NCBI RefSeq assembly: GCF_006376615.1
Contig: NZ_VEXQ01000005.1
Coordinates: forward strand, 124,001-188,000
Reading direction: 5' to 3'
From: Buttiauxella sp. B2
GTDB taxonomy: Bacteria > Pseudomonadota > Gammaproteobacteria > Enterobacterales > Enterobacteriaceae
Length of the DNA stretch: 64,000 nt
Each line of letters starts with the position of its first letter. Position 1 is the first letter of the stretch. The position numbers and the translations under genes are program-made. The notes beneath the pieces are model-generated. The model worked only from the letters and a program-made list of their open reading frames with translations. It searched no databases and was not told the DNA's origin. Positions 32,868-40,915 of this stretch are shown here, piece by piece.

Positions 32868-33863
32868 TCACCCTCGGCATTGAGAGGGTGAAAGACATGC
32901 CATTAGCGCCGCCTCACTCTGAGCAAAACTCCGCATGCCATGCTGTTGCCCAGTTTGTATCAACCCTGGTAACTGATGTGTTTTTCCTTCACGTATAAGA
33001 CTTGCCACGGCGGGTGTATTCACCAACAGCTCATACAGCGCTACCCTTCCGCCGTTTGTGTCTGGCAGTAATTTTTGCGCCAGTACTGCGTTTAAGCTGC
33101 CAGCCAGTTGGCTGCGCACCATATTTTTCTCTTCAGCGGGAAAAACATCGACCAGCCGTTCCACAGCTTGCGCCGCACCGCGTGTATGAAGTGTCGCCAG
33201 TACCAGATGCCCTGTTTCTGCGGCAGTGAGCGCAAGACGTATGGTTTCGCTGTCACGCAATTCCCCCAGCAAAATCACATCCGGGTCTTCGCGTAGTGCC
33301 GCGCGTAAACCTGCGGCAAAAGAGCGGCAATGTTCACCAGGTTCGCGCTGCTGAATCAAACAACGTTTCGAGTGATGAACAAACTCAATGGGATCTTCCA
33401 GGGTAATAATATGCCCATCAAGTTGATGATTAAGATGATCCACCATCGCCGCAAGCGTGGTGGATTTACCGCTGCCAGTGGCACCGGTCACCAGAATCAG
33501 GCCGTCTTGAGATGCCAGTAATTCAGGAACTATCGCAGGCACGTTTAGCGCCTCGAGTTTTGGGCAATGAGAAGCCAGCAATCGTAAGGCGATTGAATAC
33601 CCTTGCCGCTGGCGAAAAGCATTAGCACGTAGCCGTACTCCCTCTTTGAGGGTAATAGCAAAATCTAACTGCCCAGCCGCTTCCAACTGTTCTCGTTGTT
33701 CGTTGGTAATCCAGGTATCCAGCAATGTTTCTGGCGCTGGTGCGCATTCAGGTAGAGGTTCAAGCCGTCCTTGCCTGCGCCAGCGAGCAGGAAGCTGTGC
33801 ACACAGGTGTAGATCAGAGGCGTTATGCTTTACACTAAGGGCCACAATTTCTTCGATATCCAT
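32868..33863 (-). CDS. yggR: YggR, PilT-family type IV pilus/secretion ATPase
   Basis: AAA-type ATPase of the PilT retraction family, 331 residues from the ATG at 33863 (E. coli YggR is 326). Walker A VTGATGSGKST, the Asp box LEDPIEFVH, Walker B ILLGELRD and the His box HLVLATLHTRGA are all intact. No other pilus genes are near, so its partner is unknown. Divergent from yggS with only 15 bp between the start codons. Confidence 0.92.
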   Translation of the reverse strand: MDIEEIVALSVKHNASDLHLCAQLPARWRRQGRLEPLPECAPAPETLLDTWITNEQREQLEAAGQLDFAITLKEGVRLRANAFRQRQGYSIALRLLASHCPKLEALNVPAIVPELLASQDGLILVTGATGSGKSTTLAAMVDHLNHQLDGHIITLEDPIEFVHHSKRCLIQQREPGEHCRSFAAGLRAALREDPDVILLGELRDSETIRLALTAAETGHLVLATLHTRGAAQAVERLVDVFPAEEKNMVRSQLAGSLNAVLAQKLLPDTNGGRVALYELLVNTPAVASLIREGKTHQLPGLIQTGQQHGMRSFAQSEAALMACLSPSQCRG

Positions 33864-33878
33864 ATCACTTTCCAACCT

Positions 33879-34583
33879 ATGAACGAGATAGCGCACAATC
33901 TGGCACAGGTTCAGCACAAAATCTTAGCGGCGACTGAACGCTGCGGCCGTGCTCCAGAAGAAGTTACATTGCTTGCAGTAAGTAAAACAAAGCCTGTAAG
34001 CGCCCTCGCAGAAGCGATTGCTGCCGGGCAGCGAGCTTTCGGTGAAAACTACGTGCAGGAAGGCGTGGACAAAATTCGTTACTTTGCTGAAAACGGTGAA
34101 GAAGCACTGGAGTGGCACTTTATTGGCCCATTGCAGTCGAACAAAAGTCGTCTGGTTGCAGAGCATTTTGACTGGTGCCACACCGTCGATCGTTTGCGCA
34201 TTGCAACCCGTTTAAGCGAACAGCGTCCGGTTGAACGGCCACCACTTAACGTGCTGATTCAAATCAATATCAGTGATGAACAAAGCAAATCAGGTATTGC
34301 ACTGAGTGAGCTTGAAACGCTTGCTTCGGATGTTGCCGCTCTGCCCGGTTTGGTATTACGAGGTTTGATGGCTATTCCTGCCCCTGAACCTGATTACGAG
34401 CATCAGTTAGCGGTTTGCCAGAAAATGGCAGCGGCTTTCGAGTTGCTCAAAAACCGCTATGCAACGGTTGATACGTTGTCCCTGGGCATGACCGATGACA
34501 TGGACGCCGCGATTGCCGCTGGCAGCACCATGGTGCGCATTGGAACCGCTATTTTCGGCGCGCGGGATTACTCCGCTCGTTAA
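33879..34583 (+). CDS. yggS: YggS, PLP homeostasis protein (PLPBP)
   Basis: Pyridoxal-phosphate-binding protein (COG0325/PROSC family) without known catalysis, involved in vitamin B6 and amino acid balance. 234 residues from the ATG at 33879, the E. coli length. The PLP lysine is in LLAVSKTKPVSA near residue 36; FGENYVQEGVDKI and SLGMTDDMDAAI follow. The frame's earlier start would run into yggR. First gene of yggS-yggT-yggU-rdgB-hemW. Confidence 0.95.
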   Translation: MNEIAHNLAQVQHKILAATERCGRAPEEVTLLAVSKTKPVSALAEAIAAGQRAFGENYVQEGVDKIRYFAENGEEALEWHFIGPLQSNKSRLVAEHFDWCHTVDRLRIATRLSEQRPVERPPLNVLIQINISDEQSKSGIALSELETLASDVAALPGLVLRGLMAIPAPEPDYEHQLAVCQKMAAAFELLKNRYATVDTLSLGMTDDMDAAIAAGSTMVRIGTAIFGARDYSAR

Positions 34584-34605
34584 TCATTAAATTTTGAGGA
34601 ACGCC

Positions 34606-35160
34606 ATGCTGACGTTGACTTTCCTGGTCAAAACACTGATTGAACTGTATGTGATGGTGCTGTTGATTCGCATCTGGATGCAGTGGTCGCGTTGTGATTT
34701 TTACAATCCTTTTGCACAATTTATCGTCAAAATTACTCAACCGATTGTCGGTCCACTTCGCCGCATTATTCCGTCCATCGGGCCGATTGATACTTCATCT
34801 TTGTTGGTGGCGTTTATCCTCGTCACACTGAAATATCCGTTGCTACTGCTGATTCAGGTAGGCGCTTTGTCTCTTGACCCTATGAACCTACTGGTCGGCC
34901 TGTTATCGCTGCTGAAGTCCGCAGGCTCACTGGTATTCTGGGTGATCATCATTCGTTCTCTGATGAGCTGGATTAGCCAGGGACGCAGCCCGGTAGAGTA
35001 TGTATTGATGCAACTGACTGAACCGATGATGGCACCTATTCGCCGTATTATTCCGGCCATGGGCGGCATTGATTTTTCCGCAATGGTGGTGATTTTAATT
35101 CTCTATATGCTGAATTATCTCGGTATGGATTTGTTCCCGGGGCTTTGGTATTTGCTGTGA
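34606..35160 (+). CDS. yggT: YggT family membrane protein
   Basis: 184-residue inner-membrane protein with two YGGT repeats, each a pair of helices with FxxPI-type segments: [20 protein letters not shown] and, in the second half, [20 protein letters not shown]. The ATG at 34606 follows TTGAGGA. Linked to potassium/osmotic phenotypes in E. coli; the molecular role is unknown. Its stop overlaps the yggU start. Confidence 0.92.
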
Positions 35161-35447
35161 GTGCAGTAAGCCAAACCGCAGATGGGCTGGTTTTACGGCT
35201 GTTTATTCAGCCTAAAGCCAGCCGCGATAGCATTATCGGGTTACATGGCGACGAGCTAAAAGTCGCCATCACCGCCCCGCCGATAGACGGCAAAGCCAAC
35301 GCTCATCTGGTAAAATATCTGGCTAAACAGTTCAAAGTCGCCAAAAGCCAGGTGTTGGTTGAAAAAGGTGAGCTAGGCCGCCATAAGCAAATTAAGATTA
35401 TCAACCCGCAACAAATCCCGACGGAAGTCGCGGCATTGCTTGATTAA
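35157..35447 (+). CDS. yggU: YggU, DUF167 family protein
   Basis: 96-residue DUF167 protein of unknown function. I use the GTG at 35157, which overlaps the yggT stop (GTGA) and gives [11 protein letters not shown], aligned with E. coli YggU; a TTG further upstream is less likely. Conserved block: [19 protein letters not shown] and PPIDGKAN. A single alpha/beta domain. Confidence 0.9.
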
Positions 35448-35475
35448 TTATCGAATTTCACAGGATTTTCTCATG

Positions 35476-36069
35476 ATGCAAAAAGTTGTCCTCGCGACGG
35501 GTAATGCCGGTAAAGTGCGTGAACTCGCTGATTTACTGAGCGATTTTGGCCTGGACGTTGTCGCGCAAACCGAATTAGGCGTGGAGTCTGCTGAAGAAAC
35601 TGGCCTGACGTTTATCGAAAATGCCATTCTGAAGGCTCGCCATGCGGCGCAAGCCACTGGAATGCCTGCCATTGCTGATGACTCCGGTCTGGCGGTTGAT
35701 GTGCTGGGCGGCGCTCCTGGGATTTACTCTGCACGTTTTTCAGGCGTTGATGCCACGGATCAACAGAATCTGGAAAAGCTGCTGGTTACACTGAAAGATG
35801 TGCCGGATGAACAGCGCAAGGCGCGTTTCCACTGTGTGCTGGTGTATATGCGTCATGCGGAAGATCCAACGCCACTGGTATGTCACGGAAGTTGGGAAGG
35901 CCAGATTACTCGCGAAGCAGCAGGTGCTGGTGGCTTTGGCTACGACCCAATTTTCTTTGTCCCAACCGAGGGCAAAACCGCAGCAGAACTCACTCGCGAC
36001 GAAAAACGTGCCATCTCTCACCGTGGACGAGCGCTAAAACTGTTACTGGAAGCAATGAAAAATGGCTAA
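35476..36069 (+). CDS. rdgB: RdgB, XTP/dITP diphosphatase
   Basis: House-cleaning nucleotide pyrophosphatase that removes dITP, XTP and dHAPTP. 197 residues from the ATG at 35476 ([14 protein letters not shown]), the E. coli length; another ATG lies one codon upstream (35473). Motifs: [11 protein letters not shown], the catalytic [20 protein letters not shown] and GFGYDPIF. Its end overlaps hemW by 8 bp. Confidence 0.95.
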
Positions 36070-37198
36070 TTTGCCACCACTGAGTCTCTATATTCACATC
36101 CCGTGGTGCGTGCAGAAGTGCCCCTACTGTGACTTCAATTCTCATGCACTTAAAGGCGACGTTCCACACGACGAGTATGTTGCCCACTTGCTGCGCGATC
36201 TGGGTAACGACGCGCCAATGGCACAAGGACGTGAAGTAAAGACCATCTTTATTGGTGGCGGTACACCTAGCTTGCTTTCAAGCGAGGCGATGCAAACGTT
36301 GCTCGATGGCGTGCGTGCACGTCTGCCGGTGGCCGCAGATGCAGAAATTACGATGGAAGCAAATCCAGGCACTGTCGAAGCCGACCGTTTTGTTGGCTAC
36401 CAACGTGCTGGTGTGAACCGTATTTCCATCGGTGTGCAGAGCTTTAGCGAGACAAAACTCAAACGTCTGGGCCGTATTCATGATTCTGGTGAAGCGAAAC
36501 GTGCGGCCAATCTGGCAAACGGATTAGGTCTGCGCAGTTTCAACCTGGATTTGATGCACGGCTTGCCGGATCAGTCGCTTGAAGAAGCGCTGGACGATTT
36601 GCGCCAGGCAATTGACCTCAATCCACCGCATCTTTCCTGGTATCAGTTGACGATTGAGCCGAACACCTTGTTCAGCTCGCGCCCACCCAAATTACCGGAC
36701 GACGACGCGCTGTGGGATATTTTCGAGCAAGGCGACAAATTACTTACCGCTGCGGGTTATCAGCAATACGAAACCTCAGCCTATGCAAAACCGGGGTATC
36801 AGTGCCAACACAACCTTAATTACTGGCGCTTTGGCGACTATCTGGGTATTGGTTGCGGTGCGCATGGCAAAGTGACGTTTGAAGACGGGCGTATTGCGCG
36901 CACCGCTAAAACACGCCATCCACGCGGCTATATGGAAGGGAAATATCTCGACCGCCAGCACGATGTGGAACAAGTCGACAAGCCGTTCGAGTTCTTTATG
37001 AACCGCTTCCGTTTGCTGGAAGCCGCACCACGCAATGAATTTAGCCGGTACACAGGGCTCGATGAGGCGGTGATTCGCGCGCAGTTAGATGAGGCGATTG
37101 CTAAAGATTACCTGGTAGAAACGCAAGAATACTGGCAGATAACCGAGCACGGTAAGCTGTTCCTGAACTCGCTGTTGGAGCTGTTTTTGGCAGAATAA
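36062..37198 (+). CDS. hemW: HemW (YggW), radical-SAM heme chaperone
   Basis: Radical-SAM family protein related to HemN, acting as a heme chaperone. 378 residues, as in E. coli. The iron-sulfur cysteines are in [13 protein letters not shown] (CxxxCxxC, residues ~14-23), followed by [10 protein letters not shown] and [11 protein letters not shown]. It is the last gene of this E. coli-like block; downstream the synteny breaks. Confidence 0.95.
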
Positions 37199-37200
37199 AT

Positions 37201-37230
37201 AGAAGGTGGATATTGGCTAATCCACCTTCT
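37201..37230. terminator. Bidirectional hairpin between hemW and setA
   Basis: AGAAGGTGGAT (37201-37211) and ATCCACCTTCT (37220-37230) form a perfect 11-bp stem between convergent genes. It also marks the junction of two blocks that are distant in E. coli. Confidence 0.75.
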
Positions 37231-37237
37231 ATTCAAC

Positions 37238-38416
37238 TTAAATATTCTTCACTCTACTGGTCAAAATCAGCGCCAGCACTGAAAGCCCGGCAATCAACCA
37301 GTACACTGAATGGTGCCCGAAACTCTCCGCCAGTGTCCCTTGTAAAACCCCAGCTAAAATCACGCCCGTCGAAATACTATTGGTAAATAGAGTGGTCGCT
37401 GAACCCGGTCTGCCGGGCATTAAATCCTGGAACCACAACATGCCGATACCGGCGACAATGCCAATGAATACCGCGTTAAATAGCTGCAGTAACAGCAGCG
37501 CCGTTCGGCTATGGAACAGAATCAGCCCTACGTAAAACAACACTCCAGCCGCAACCGCTATCACCATCATGCGGCGCTTTCCAAAACGTTTCACGTAGTA
37601 GCCCGCAAGGATCATCGCGGGGATTTCAAGCCCTGCCGCCGTTCCCATTAAAAGGCCAGCGAGTGACTCTGGCAGCCCTAAGTCACTGCTCACCCATAAC
37701 GGCATATCAATGATGTACATGGTGTTACAGGTCCACATCAACATCGATGCGATAAACAACATGCGTACATTTTTATCTTTCCAGCCGCTGACCTGAGTCA
37801 GCGCCACATCAGCAGGCTGTTCAATCCTGTTTACCGATGGGAGAGCGAAGAAAATTAGCGCCAGCGAGATAACGAATATCCCCGCAGCGATAAGAAACAT
37901 GGTGGTGAAGCCGTAATTTAGCGCCAGCATGAACGATAGCGGCGGGCCAATAACCCAGGCAAGCGACAACTGCGCACGCATTATCGAACTGAACATCACC
38001 ACTTCACGCGCGGAACTGTCGGCATATTCACGGGCAAGGGCAAAAATTTGCGGCATTGCCGTGTTAGCGATTGAAGCGAACATGACGCCAATGGTAATTA
38101 ACGTCAGATAATGGCGGTTAAAAGCGAACAAGATGCAGTTTGCCACGGCCATTGCACAGCAAACCATAATCAGCTTACGTCTGTCGCCCCGGCTATCTGA
38201 ACGTTTTGCCAGCATCAGGCTGACCATAATACCGGCTATTGCATTGACGGTGTAAAACAGCCCGACCCAGAACGGTCGCACTTGCACTTCACGCGTTAAA
38301 AACAGGCTAAGAGTGGGTGCCTGAAGTGCACCAGCAATCCCCATCATAAAAGCCACTGCCATAAATGCAGCGTATACCGGATTGAGGCGTCGTCCTTTTG
38401 TCAGAAACCAGGCCAT
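37238..38416 (-). CDS. setA: SetA, sugar efflux transporter
   Basis: Major-facilitator sugar exporter that relieves glucose-phosphate stress. The ATG at 38416 (MAWFLTKGRRLN) gives 392 residues, equal to E. coli SetA, and has AAGGA upstream; the frame's longer start runs through a short ERIC and is not credible. About twelve hydrophobic helices; KRSDSRGDRRKLIM is the loop 2-3 motif. It lies downstream of sgrS in the same direction, as in E. coli. Confidence 0.95.
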   Translation of the reverse strand: MAWFLTKGRRLNPVYAAFMAVAFMMGIAGALQAPTLSLFLTREVQVRPFWVGLFYTVNAIAGIMVSLMLAKRSDSRGDRRKLIMVCCAMAVANCILFAFNRHYLTLITIGVMFASIANTAMPQIFALAREYADSSAREVVMFSSIMRAQLSLAWVIGPPLSFMLALNYGFTTMFLIAAGIFVISLALIFFALPSVNRIEQPADVALTQVSGWKDKNVRMLFIASMLMWTCNTMYIIDMPLWVSSDLGLPESLAGLLMGTAAGLEIPAMILAGYYVKRFGKRRMMVIAVAAGVLFYVGLILFHSRTALLLLQLFNAVFIGIVAGIGMLWFQDLMPGRPGSATTLFTNSISTGVILAGVLQGTLAESFGHHSVYWLIAGLSVLALILTSRVKNI

Positions 38417-38466
38417 GCAATGAGATCCTTTTGCTCGAGCGGATGATAAATGTGCAAGCCGTCCAC

Positions 38467-38526
38467 TATACCCTAAATAATTTGAGTTACAGGCAACACC
38501 CCTACAGCTCGAAGTATGACGGGTAT
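38467..38526. repeat. Short, internally deleted ERIC between sgrS and setA
   Basis: About 60 bp carrying only the two ERIC ends: TATACCCTAAATAATTTGAG on the left and CTCGAAGTATGACGGGTATA on the right, with the core missing. Internally deleted ERICs are a known variant class. It abuts the T-run of the sgrS terminator. Confidence 0.85.
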
Positions 38527-38590
38527 AAAAAAGCCAGCAGTAATAATCTGCTGGCCAGGTGAACATCACCAATTCTCAGTCACACATGAT

Positions 38591-38716
38591 GTATACCCAA
38601 AATAATTCGAGTGGTGGGTAGGCGGCAAACTTACGAATCCCCAGGAGCTTACTAAAGTAAGTGACTGGGTGAGTAAGTGCAGCCAACACCCCCACAACTT
38701 GAAGTATGACGGGTAC
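38591..38716. repeat. ERIC element inserted inside sgrS
   Basis: Full-length ERIC: GTATACCCAAAATAATTCGAG (in part) on the left, GAATCCCCAGGAGCTTACTA and AAGTAAGTGACTGGGTGAGT in the core, and TTGAAGTATGACGGGTA on the right. Removing it joins CTCGCCGTA to ATCATGTGTG on the minus strand, closely matching E. coli SgrS (CTTGCCTGC-ATCATGTGTG). This fits insertion at a TA dinucleotide. Confidence 0.92.
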
Positions 38717-38722
38717 GGCGAG

Positions 38723-38884
38723 TTAGTGCTTCCCGGTCACTGGAGAGGTTATCTCCCACTGCATCAAGTCTTCGAGCACCCTCAGACGTTGCGCCGCTGT
38801 CAGGCGGGCCAGCCATCCAGCAGAAACACTTTGTGTTGCGGCAAAATACTGTTGATAAAACTTAACAACTGGCGACCGTTTCAT
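38723..38884 (-). CDS. sgrT: SgrT, small peptide encoded within SgrS
   Basis: 53-residue peptide from the ATG at 38884, preceded by GGAGG. E. coli SgrT (43 residues) blocks the glucose PTS transporter PtsG. Shared features: KFYQQYFAAT near residues 8-17, then LTAAQRLRVLEDLMQWE (28-44), matching the E. coli FYQHYFTAT and LSVPQRLTMLEGLMQW. This copy has an N-terminal extension (MKRSPVV) and a longer tail. The stop codon falls 6 bp before the ERIC insertion, so the peptide is intact. Confidence 0.9.
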   Translation of the reverse strand: MKRSPVVKFYQQYFAATQSVSAGWLARLTAAQRLRVLEDLMQWEITSPVTGKH

Positions 38885-38971
38885 ATACACCTCCTCGCTT
38901 TCATCGTTGATAATTATTGGCGTAATATGAGGAAAGTTAAATTGATGAGTTTCTGTCGGGAGTTCCTCTTT

Positions 38972-39085
38972 TCTACCCTTTAGCCGCTAGCGGCAAGAGA
39001 GGGAGTCCTCGAAGCTTACTTGAGTAAGTAACTGGGGTGAGTAAGTGCAGCCTACACCCCCGCAACTTGAAGGATGAAGGGTATA
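38972..39085. repeat. ERIC element ending at the sgrR start codon
   Basis: A partly decayed left arm (CTACCCTTTAGCCGCTAGC) is followed by a good core (GGGAGTCCTCGAAGCTTACT, AGTAAGTAACTGGGGTGAG) and right end GAAGGATGAAGGGTATA. The terminal A is the first base of the sgrR ATG. Confidence 0.85.
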
Positions 39086-40743
39086 TGTCGAGTGGTCGTC
39101 TGCAACAACAGTTCATCCGCCTGTGGCAATCCTATGAAGGCAAGCCGCAAGAAACGACGTTAAATGAATTGGCCGAACTGCTGAATTGTTCCCGCCGCCA
39201 TATGCGTACGTTACTCAGTGCAATGCAGGATAATGGCTGGCTAAGCTGGAAAGCTGAGGCCGGGCGTGGCAAGCGATCAAAGCTTGAATTTCTGTACACG
39301 GGCCTTGCGCTTCAGCAACAGCGAGCAGAGGATCTTCTCGAACAGGATCGTATTGATCAGCTGGTGCAGATCGTTGGAGATAAAGCCGCGGTGCGCCAGA
39401 TGCTAATTTCCCACCTCGGGCGCAGCTTCCGCCAGGGGCGGCATATTCTGCGCGTGCTTTACTATCGCCCACTGCTAAATCTTCTACCTGGGTCAGCATT
39501 ACGCCGTTCAGAAACCCATATTGCCCGCCAAATTTTCAGCGGGCTAATCCGTATAAATGAGGAAAATGGGGAACTGGAAGCGGATATAGCGCATCACTGG
39601 CAACAAATTTCCCCATTACATTGGCGTTTTTATCTTCGCCCAGGCATTCATTTTCATCATGGCCGCGAGCTGGATATGCTGGATGTGATGACATCATTGC
39701 AGCGTATTAATACGCTGCCGCTTTACTCGCACATCACGCAAATCACTTCGCCCACCGCCTGGACTCTGGATATCACCCTTTCACAACCAGACAAATGGCT
39801 TCCCTGGCTGCTTGGCTCCGTTAACGCGATGATTTTGCCACGTGAGTGGCAGACATTGAGCCATTTTGCCCGGCAGCCAGTGGGATCCGGCCCGTATTCT
39901 GTGGTGCGAAATAACAATAACCAGCTGAAGATTCAGGCTTACGACGATTACTTTGGTTATCGCGCACTGATAGATGAGGTGAATTTCTGGGTGCTGCCGG
40001 AAATTGGCGAGGAAGTCAGTTGCGCCGTGCAACTGTCCGGTATGCCAGACAGCGAAAAAGCCGTCGAAAGCCGCCTTGAAGAAGGGTGTTACTACATTTT
40101 ATTTGATTGCCGTTCAAAATCTGGAGGCAACGGTGAAGTGCGTCGCTGGCTCAGCCATGTTCTGGCACCTATTCATCTACTTTATAGTACGGGTGAACAA
40201 AACCAGCACTACTGGTTCCCGGCTTACGGTTTACTGCCACGCTGGCACCACACACGCCCACAGTCAGCGCTTGAGAAACCTGCCGGGCTTGAATCCGTGA
40301 CGCTGACGTTTTATCGCGATCATGTAGAACACCGGGTTATCAGTAAAGTCATGGAGAAGCTGCTGTCTCGCCATGGCATTAAACTTATCGTGCAGGAAGT
40401 CAGTTATGAGGAGTGGCATCAAGGTGATGCTGAGAGCGATATTTGGCTCAACAGCGCGAACTTCACCCTGCCGCTGGAGTTTTCACTCTATTCTCATCTT
40501 TATGAAGTGCCACTGATTCAAAAGTGTATTGCGATTGACTGGGAAACAGATACCCGTAAATGGCATAACGGAGAACTTTCTCTGCCCGAGTGGTGCCAGA
40601 AACGCGTTGAAAACAATGAAATTTTACCGTTAATCCACCACTGGCTGCGCATTGAAGGGCAGCGCAGTATGCGTGGCGTGAGAATGAACACATTGGGATG
40701 GTTCGACTTTAAATCCGCCTGGTTTGCGCCACCTGAACCGTAA
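39085..40743 (+). CDS. sgrR: SgrR, transcriptional activator of sgrS
   Basis: Activates sgrS when sugar phosphates accumulate. The ATG at 39085 ([15 protein letters not shown]) gives 552 residues (E. coli 551). An N-terminal winged-helix DNA-binding domain (to ~115; [17 protein letters not shown]) is followed by a solute-binding-protein-like domain. The frame is open back to 39037, but that part is ERIC sequence. The likely ribosome site AAGGA (39070-39074) lies inside the ERIC right end. Divergent from sgrS, convergent arrangement as in E. coli. Confidence 0.95.
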
Positions 40744-40782
40744 TCCTTTCGAAATATTCACAAAGTCACTACAATGCACGCG

Positions 40783-40872
40783 TTCTCAACGGGGTGCTAA
40801 GACGAAAGTCTGGCTGAGATAATACCCGTCGAACCTGATCCGGATAACGCCGGCGAAGGGATTTGGGGCTCA
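40783..40872 (+). promoter_or_regulatory. TPP riboswitch (THI box) of thiBPQ
   Basis: The THI-box core is plain: ACGGGGTGCT (40790-40799), GGCTGAGATAATACCC (40812-40827), GAACCTGATCCGGATAACGC (40831-40850) and GGCGAAGGGA (40852-40861). It ends about 45 bp before the thiB start and would shut off thiamine import when thiamine pyrophosphate is high. Confidence 0.96.
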
Positions 40873-40915
40873 ATTCTCAAAGTCCTTTGCCACCCCTAAT
40901 CCCAAGAGGTGCAAA

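Follow-up and report, generated by a model that had tools for sequence, protein, structure and literature searches.

A complete ERIC element between the sgrT frame and the ptsG-pairing seed of SgrS in a Buttiauxella genome

Introduction

SgrS is a standard model of a dual-function RNA. The locus described here raises the question of what becomes of such an RNA when a mobile repeat comes to lie between its two halves. In the window (the whole stretch of 64,000 nucleotides from contig NZ_VEXQ01000005.1 of Buttiauxella sp. B2 that was analysed), an ERIC element is located between the stop codon of sgrT and the ptsG-pairing seed of SgrS. A first-pass annotation had pointed out this insertion and had proposed that the added hairpin could change RNase E cleavage and Hfq access or allow a shorter, seed-only RNA. 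We found that the insertion, the two preserved halves, the empty sites in sister species and, in models, the hairpin are borne out, but altered access of the seed and a new promoter for a seed-only RNA are not. The independent ERIC insertions in SgrS of other genomes are a result beyond that annotation.

The size of SgrS is known to vary among enteric bacteria, in agreement with what the annotation had mentioned, and 5' truncation, loss of sgrT and a start-codon mutation have been described (PMC4021124). In the literature searched, which lay mostly outside subscription papers and did not cover the 2009 survey of SgrS homologs, we found no report of an ERIC inside sgrS and no paper on SgrS in Buttiauxella.

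Results

The Rfam covariance model RF00534 matched the minus strand of the window at 38526-38905 with 65.7 bits (gathering score 37, E 1.7e-16), giving an SgrS of about 380 nt, compared with 228-261 nt for the matches in 11 other Buttiauxella. The neighbours are those of sgrS in E. coli according to the annotation of their matches, in the order sgrR-sgrS-setA: an SgrR equivalog (1040 bits) begins at 39085, and a member of a sugar efflux transporter subfamily (540.7 bits), named setA by its position, is encoded at 37241-38416. An intact sgrS elsewhere in the genome had been named at first as the finding that would speak against this reading, and the Rfam SgrS search of the assembly (75 contigs) detected sgrS only once. 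A plasmid copy was not found either, as none of the 292 matching records (0/292) had a place covering 80% of the locus query. In the surroundings of the locus, a TPP riboswitch (68.6 bits) was found at 40780-40879 upstream of thiB. On the other side, at 33825-38416, the transporter gene is followed by hemW and by genes whose translations resemble rdgB, yggU, yggT and yggS, whereas in E. coli the leu genes follow.

All the recognised parts of SgrS were found on the minus strand. A promoter-like site, TTAACT-16-AATAAT, lies at 38913-38940, a few bases ahead of position 38905, where the RNA begins; it came from a consensus scan of 38400-39200 that gave 2 sites (1.0 on average in shuffled sequences), and its -10 region is 1 of 16 bases off the motif used in the survey below. 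The sgrT frame of 53 codons, with the ribosome-binding site GAGGAGGT upstream, occupies 38723-38884, intact and exactly where it had been placed before. The ptsG-pairing seed GTGTGACTGAGAATT is at 38571-38585, identified by sequence, Rfam alignment and the survey, and is followed by the small stem-loop GGTG..CACC at 38558-38570, part of the Hfq-binding module and with a role known from E. coli (PMC7870926), and by a Rho-independent terminator with a T run at 38527-38556. Folds and the terminator scan, which delimited 38532-38556, showed the small stem-loop and the terminator with its U tail in the window SgrS. The seed and terminator previously assigned to 38590-38527 are indeed present there, together with the stem-loop. 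Judged by sequence, every one of these parts, from promoter to terminator, is intact in the window.

The NCBIfam models gave no match to sgrT, and relatives of it are encoded at nine loci of the genome contigs searched, seven of them in Buttiauxella, with 81-86% identity. Between the window and the nearest sister species, G009, 44 codons of sgrT hold 4 synonymous and 2 nonsynonymous differences, a dN/dS of 0.14 that is drawn from six differences only.

The ERIC occupies 38594-38715 on the minus strand (122 bp, both terminal TA included), as delimited by the ERIC profile, BLAST and the comparison of the flanks with G009. The profile, which was seeded with this same element, matched at 38715-38595 with 116.6 bits (E 1.8e-34), and dispersed ERIC copies in congeners match the element at up to 96% identity in BLAST. 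The earlier description of a complete ERIC of 126 bp at 38591-38716 thus holds for the element but not for its bounds, which take in a few flank bases. On one side 7 nt separate the element from the sgrT stop codon, on the other 8 nt separate it from the GTGTGAC seed, and its insertion has lengthened the locus by about 120 bp net. While the empty site in G009 reads ACTAACTCACC-TATACATG, the filled site in the window reads ACTAACTCGCCG-TA-[ERIC]-TA-TACATCATG, its left flank being longer by a single G and its right flank by three bases. The additional G on the left aside, the comparison is consistent with duplication of a TA target, in agreement with the proposal of insertion at a TA between two preserved halves. 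The comparison of empty and filled sites that had been suggested at the same time showed no ERIC at this linker site in any of the 11 other Buttiauxella species compared (11/11 empty). The spacing from the sgrT stop to the seed is 11-13 nt in 10 of these; in the remaining one, G008, the sgrT frame is altered and longer and overlaps the seed by 10 nt.

Near-full ERICs number 15 in 464 kb of the window's own genome, or about 32 per Mb. The window contains 6 of them and a further 400 kb the other 9, and all 15 are for the most part clear of ORFs with at least 120 aa. While the ERIC match itself is not in doubt, its position is less surprising, as ERICs are so dense and intergenic in this genome, and it is not unlikely that an ERIC lands in some regulatory RNA. 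At a density of 1.9e-4 near-full elements per base of noncoding sequence, a figure to which the window contributes 6 of the 15, about 0.07 ERICs would be expected over 12 Buttiauxella genomes in a 30 bp spacer and 0.58 in 252 bp; 2 were observed, in the window's own genome (G000) and in G008. We make no claim that SgrS is a hot spot for ERICs, as the target length was picked after the fact.

Other ERIC sequences flank sgrS. A second ERIC (38983-39083, minus strand, 83.2 bits) is in the sgrR leader directly before the sgrR ATG at 39085, between this ATG and the likely ribosome-binding GGGAG known from sister species, and a GTG start at 39037 encoded by this ERIC could lengthen SgrR by 16 residues. 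An ERIC remnant (38474-38525, minus strand, 31.3 bits) directly follows the SgrS terminator. Several Buttiauxella sisters have ERIC remnants of various length after the SgrS terminator, and G002 has a full ERIC there (L010:1376-1498).

In the predicted minimum free energy (MFE) folds, the ERIC forms a separate hairpin within the window SgrS, and the structures of the 5' and 3' parts do not change when only its flanks are left in place, so that the long added hairpin of the first-pass annotation is recovered in the models. Altered access to the seed is not supported by the models: the unpaired probability of the seed core in the window (0.77) is close to that in the empty G009 (0.78), with a median of 0.68 over 96 SgrS, among which the window ranks 66th counting from the most closed. 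Occlusion of the seed by the ERIC is likewise unsupported. The value of 0.77 comes from a fold that ends at the terminator; one that ran slightly past it at the 3' end gave a seed openness of 0.64 with the ERIC and 0.59 with the flanks only. The small stem-loop is somewhat less certain in the window, with a pair probability of 0.78 compared with 0.99 in G009. In E. coli, the 3' part alone (SgrS-S) is described as a minimal functional region (PMC5558911), and the two 3' stem-loops matter for Hfq and for stability (PMC7870926). The window ERIC is entirely upstream of the part that corresponds to SgrS-S.

The seed itself differs in one base that is shared by most of the genus. Counting the window, 11 of 12 Buttiauxella have an A in place of the usual U at 38574 or the equivalent base, and only G009 has the U; the position is E. 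coli 179 in our own numbering from the 168-187 range in PMC7870926, and the change costs one pair with ptsG. The best predicted duplex of the window seed with its own ptsG leader has -16.5 kcal/mol and is at an upstream site, compared with -15.2 in a stretch that contains the usual ptsG site but lacks the upstream one, and with -19.9 for a G009-type seed on the same leader. When the ptsG locus was scanned in 218 segments, the lowest energy was found in the leader segments, with the best duplex at the upstream site and one usual pair lost. Because of the A-for-U change and the weaker duplex energy (-16.5 vs -19.9), these models suggest that ptsG control may be weaker across Buttiauxella, whether an ERIC is present or not.

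ERICs in SgrS are not confined to the window. We searched 392 genomes of the family and obtained an SgrS match in 194; the survey comprised 160 species, with sgrS from 154 of the 194 and from six further Buttiauxella, while the remaining 40 matched genomes were mostly at the weak end of the matches. The 198 genomes with no SgrS match might include broken copies, and an ERIC within the seed or the terminator could evade a family search. Our own rule recognised an sgrT frame in 110 of the 160 species, which the gap counts cover: the gap from the sgrT stop to the seed was -10 to 56 nt (median 14) in 108 species, while the window has 137 and G077 has 136. For the distance from promoter to seed, we left out 27 of the 160 species with more than 4 seed mismatches and allowed 6 of 16 mismatches in the promoter match; the distance was obtained in 132 of the 133 species, with a median of 210, and the four longest distances (316-343) belong to the ERIC carriers G000, G008, G077 and G176.

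Over the 160 species and a whole-genus check, ERICs entered SgrS in five or six events, each at a spacer: in the 5' leader by the sgrT ribosome-binding site, in the linker between sgrT and the seed (twice, in opposite orientations), and in the loop of the small stem-loop that takes part in Hfq binding. The second linker insertion is that of G077, from another genus, whose ERIC has the orientation opposite to that in the window; an empty congener is missing because only one genome represents that genus. In the leader of G176, the ERIC is followed by a second ribosome-binding site and is absent in the three congeners compared (G270, G337 and G396). In G008, the ERIC separates the ribosome-binding site GAGGAGGT from the sgrT ATG, an arrangement of a hairpin between ribosome-binding site and start codon for which we found no paper in the literature searched. 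When the leader piece of G008 was folded, GAGGAGGT was open and near the ATG, while in the fold of the whole RNA it was partly paired. The sgrT of G008 has a dN/dS of 0.63 to G009 and an altered C-terminus, and by its sequence looks relaxed. As this relaxed-looking frame has its ERIC at the ribosome-binding site, not every ERIC insertion appears to be neutral.

In the small stem-loop, a full ERIC (99 bits) fills the loop in G234, and the sole congener surveyed, G118, has no ERIC there. The openness of the G234 seed is 0.41 compared with the median of 0.68, and the stem is missing from the MFE fold of the whole RNA. Every species surveyed of another genus, g2, also has a long SgrS (20/20, 304-415 nt, matches of 124-156 bits) with extra sequence within the GGTG..CACC loop (20/20). 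A near-full-length match to the ERIC profile was found in 7 of the 20 (E 2e-25 to 8e-23; 2e-18 to 3e-16 with the other profile), and another five matched at the left end (E 2e-5 to 3e-3). Among the other eight, one matched weakly over the right part (E 0.009), while the rest were assigned by position and a shared right junction only; all these E-values apply to a search set of 20 short sequences. Because the G012 allele, used as a query for the loop insert, gave only short partial matches outside sgrS, the ERIC identity of the g2 insert rests on the full-length alleles. Going by its distribution and sequence, the g2 insert is old and retained. The GGTG/CACC stem was kept and extended in 20/20 species when the 3' segment was folded alone, but was kept in only 11/20 in the MFE folds of the whole RNA, and we therefore do not regard the stem as conserved across all of g2. 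The predicted seed openness was 0.31-0.57 in the five g2 species scored, below the median of 0.68; loop inserts, in g2 as in G234, thus accompany a lower predicted openness of the seed. With the same loop and a similar right junction, G234 and g2 may go back to one shared insertion, hence the count of five or six events. A palindrome of another kind occupies the loop of the SgrS small stem-loop in G095 (L040), which is outside g2, and genera g65 and g118 have extensions of 10-13 nt at this loop.

In five SgrS of the empty type, spacers hold 11-30% of the TA dinucleotides (mean 18%). If all TA were equally likely as targets and every insertion visible, the probability of finding six of six events in spacers would be 3e-5 at the mean fraction and 7e-4 at the highest, and that of five of five would be 0.0024 at the highest. 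For the events upstream of the seed, the probability that four of four are outside the sgrT frame is at most 0.004. The spacer-only positions support a constraint on SgrS but fall short of proof, because insertions in the seed or terminator may evade the family search.

Discussion

We propose, with a probability of about 70%, that a complete ERIC MITE transposed into a TA of the spacer between sgrT and the seed, and that the SgrS of the window still works, the ERIC being a near-neutral, self-folding insert. The ERIC would be co-transcribed within an SgrS of roughly 380 nt and its RNA would fold on itself as an independent hairpin, so that the sgrT mRNA part and the 3' part with the seed and the Hfq-binding module would function much as before. 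SgrS would tolerate an ERIC because its modules are separable and linked by spacers, and in the survey ERICs were found only at the leader, the sgrT-seed linker and the loop of the small stem-loop. We consider more tentatively, and as doubtful, a further step in which these insertion-tolerant joints are places where ERICs repeatedly became structural parts, the g2 ERIC serving as a working extension of the Hfq-binding stem-loop and the window ERIC as an insulating hairpin or a cleavage joint between the peptide and base-pairing halves.

A ribosome at the sgrT stop codon might hinder folding of the left arm of the ERIC and thereby expose a site for RNase E in the right arm, which is AU-rich; cleavage there would release a short 3' RNA with the seed and Hfq-binding module while the sgrT half decays. 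An orientation-dependent model of this kind has been published for ERICs located 3' of Yersinia genes (PMC10969869, PMC2229807), the window ERIC begins 7 nt after the stop and ends 8 nt before the seed, and in E. coli the 3' portion is reported to function alone (PMC5558911); RNase E cleavage may be altered at the window ERIC. However, masking of the left arm, as a crude model of the ribosome at the sgrT stop, raised the openness of the right arm from 0.43 to only 0.48-0.57, and since the right arm is barely opened, the model backs such a switch weakly. The G077 ERIC, moreover, has the opposite orientation in the same linker, and we consider a processing switch unlikely.

That the ERIC attenuates or kills SgrS, leaving an early relic that still looks conserved, would suit an insertion found in 1 of the 12 Buttiauxella species compared, the weaker ptsG pairing across the genus, and the two further ERIC sequences in the flanks of sgrS. 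But all the SgrS modules are intact, the dN/dS of sgrT to G009 is low (0.14), and SgrS still matches strongly (124-156 bits) in 20/20 g2 species, which all keep a long insert; such decay is thus very unlikely. As for the TATAC just before the seed, at the right end of the ERIC, the scan found no sigma-70-type site there on the minus strand, and the sole minus-strand site in 38400-39200 is the normal sgrS promoter, so that a promoter for a seed-only RNA at this end is hardly credible. With near-neutral insertion preferred, the SgrS of the window would still have both functions.

The natural insertions reveal joints of SgrS that can be stretched by 100 nt or more with its parts still recognisable. 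The alleles at hand, with empty and filled sites, two orientations and three positions, offer a means to test the coupling between the peptide and base-pairing functions, and alleles of the g2 and G234 type bear on how Hfq copes with a small stem-loop that carries a long insert. The insertions also bear on how mobile repeats join core regulatory RNAs.

The window locus shares with the SgrS of E. coli and other enterics the sgrR-sgrS-setA order, sgrT, the seed, the small stem-loop and the terminator, but has a complete ERIC in the linker, whereas the accessible part of PMC4021124 describes no repeat insertion. It resembles the co-transcribed ERICs of Yersinia in that an ERIC with TA ends and hairpin-forming RNA lies beside a coding sequence (PMC10969869, PMC2229807); however, the Yersinia elements, as described in those texts, act on mRNAs, while the window ERIC separates the two halves of a regulatory RNA with dual function. 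A further parallel is that of the Rickettsia palindromic elements in the tmRNA and M1 RNA genes, where a mobile palindrome is likewise found in the gene of a structured RNA with a possibly neutral effect (PMC2229807). Those are another repeat in other RNAs, whereas SgrS, one trans-acting regulator, has several separate insertions at the borders of its modules.
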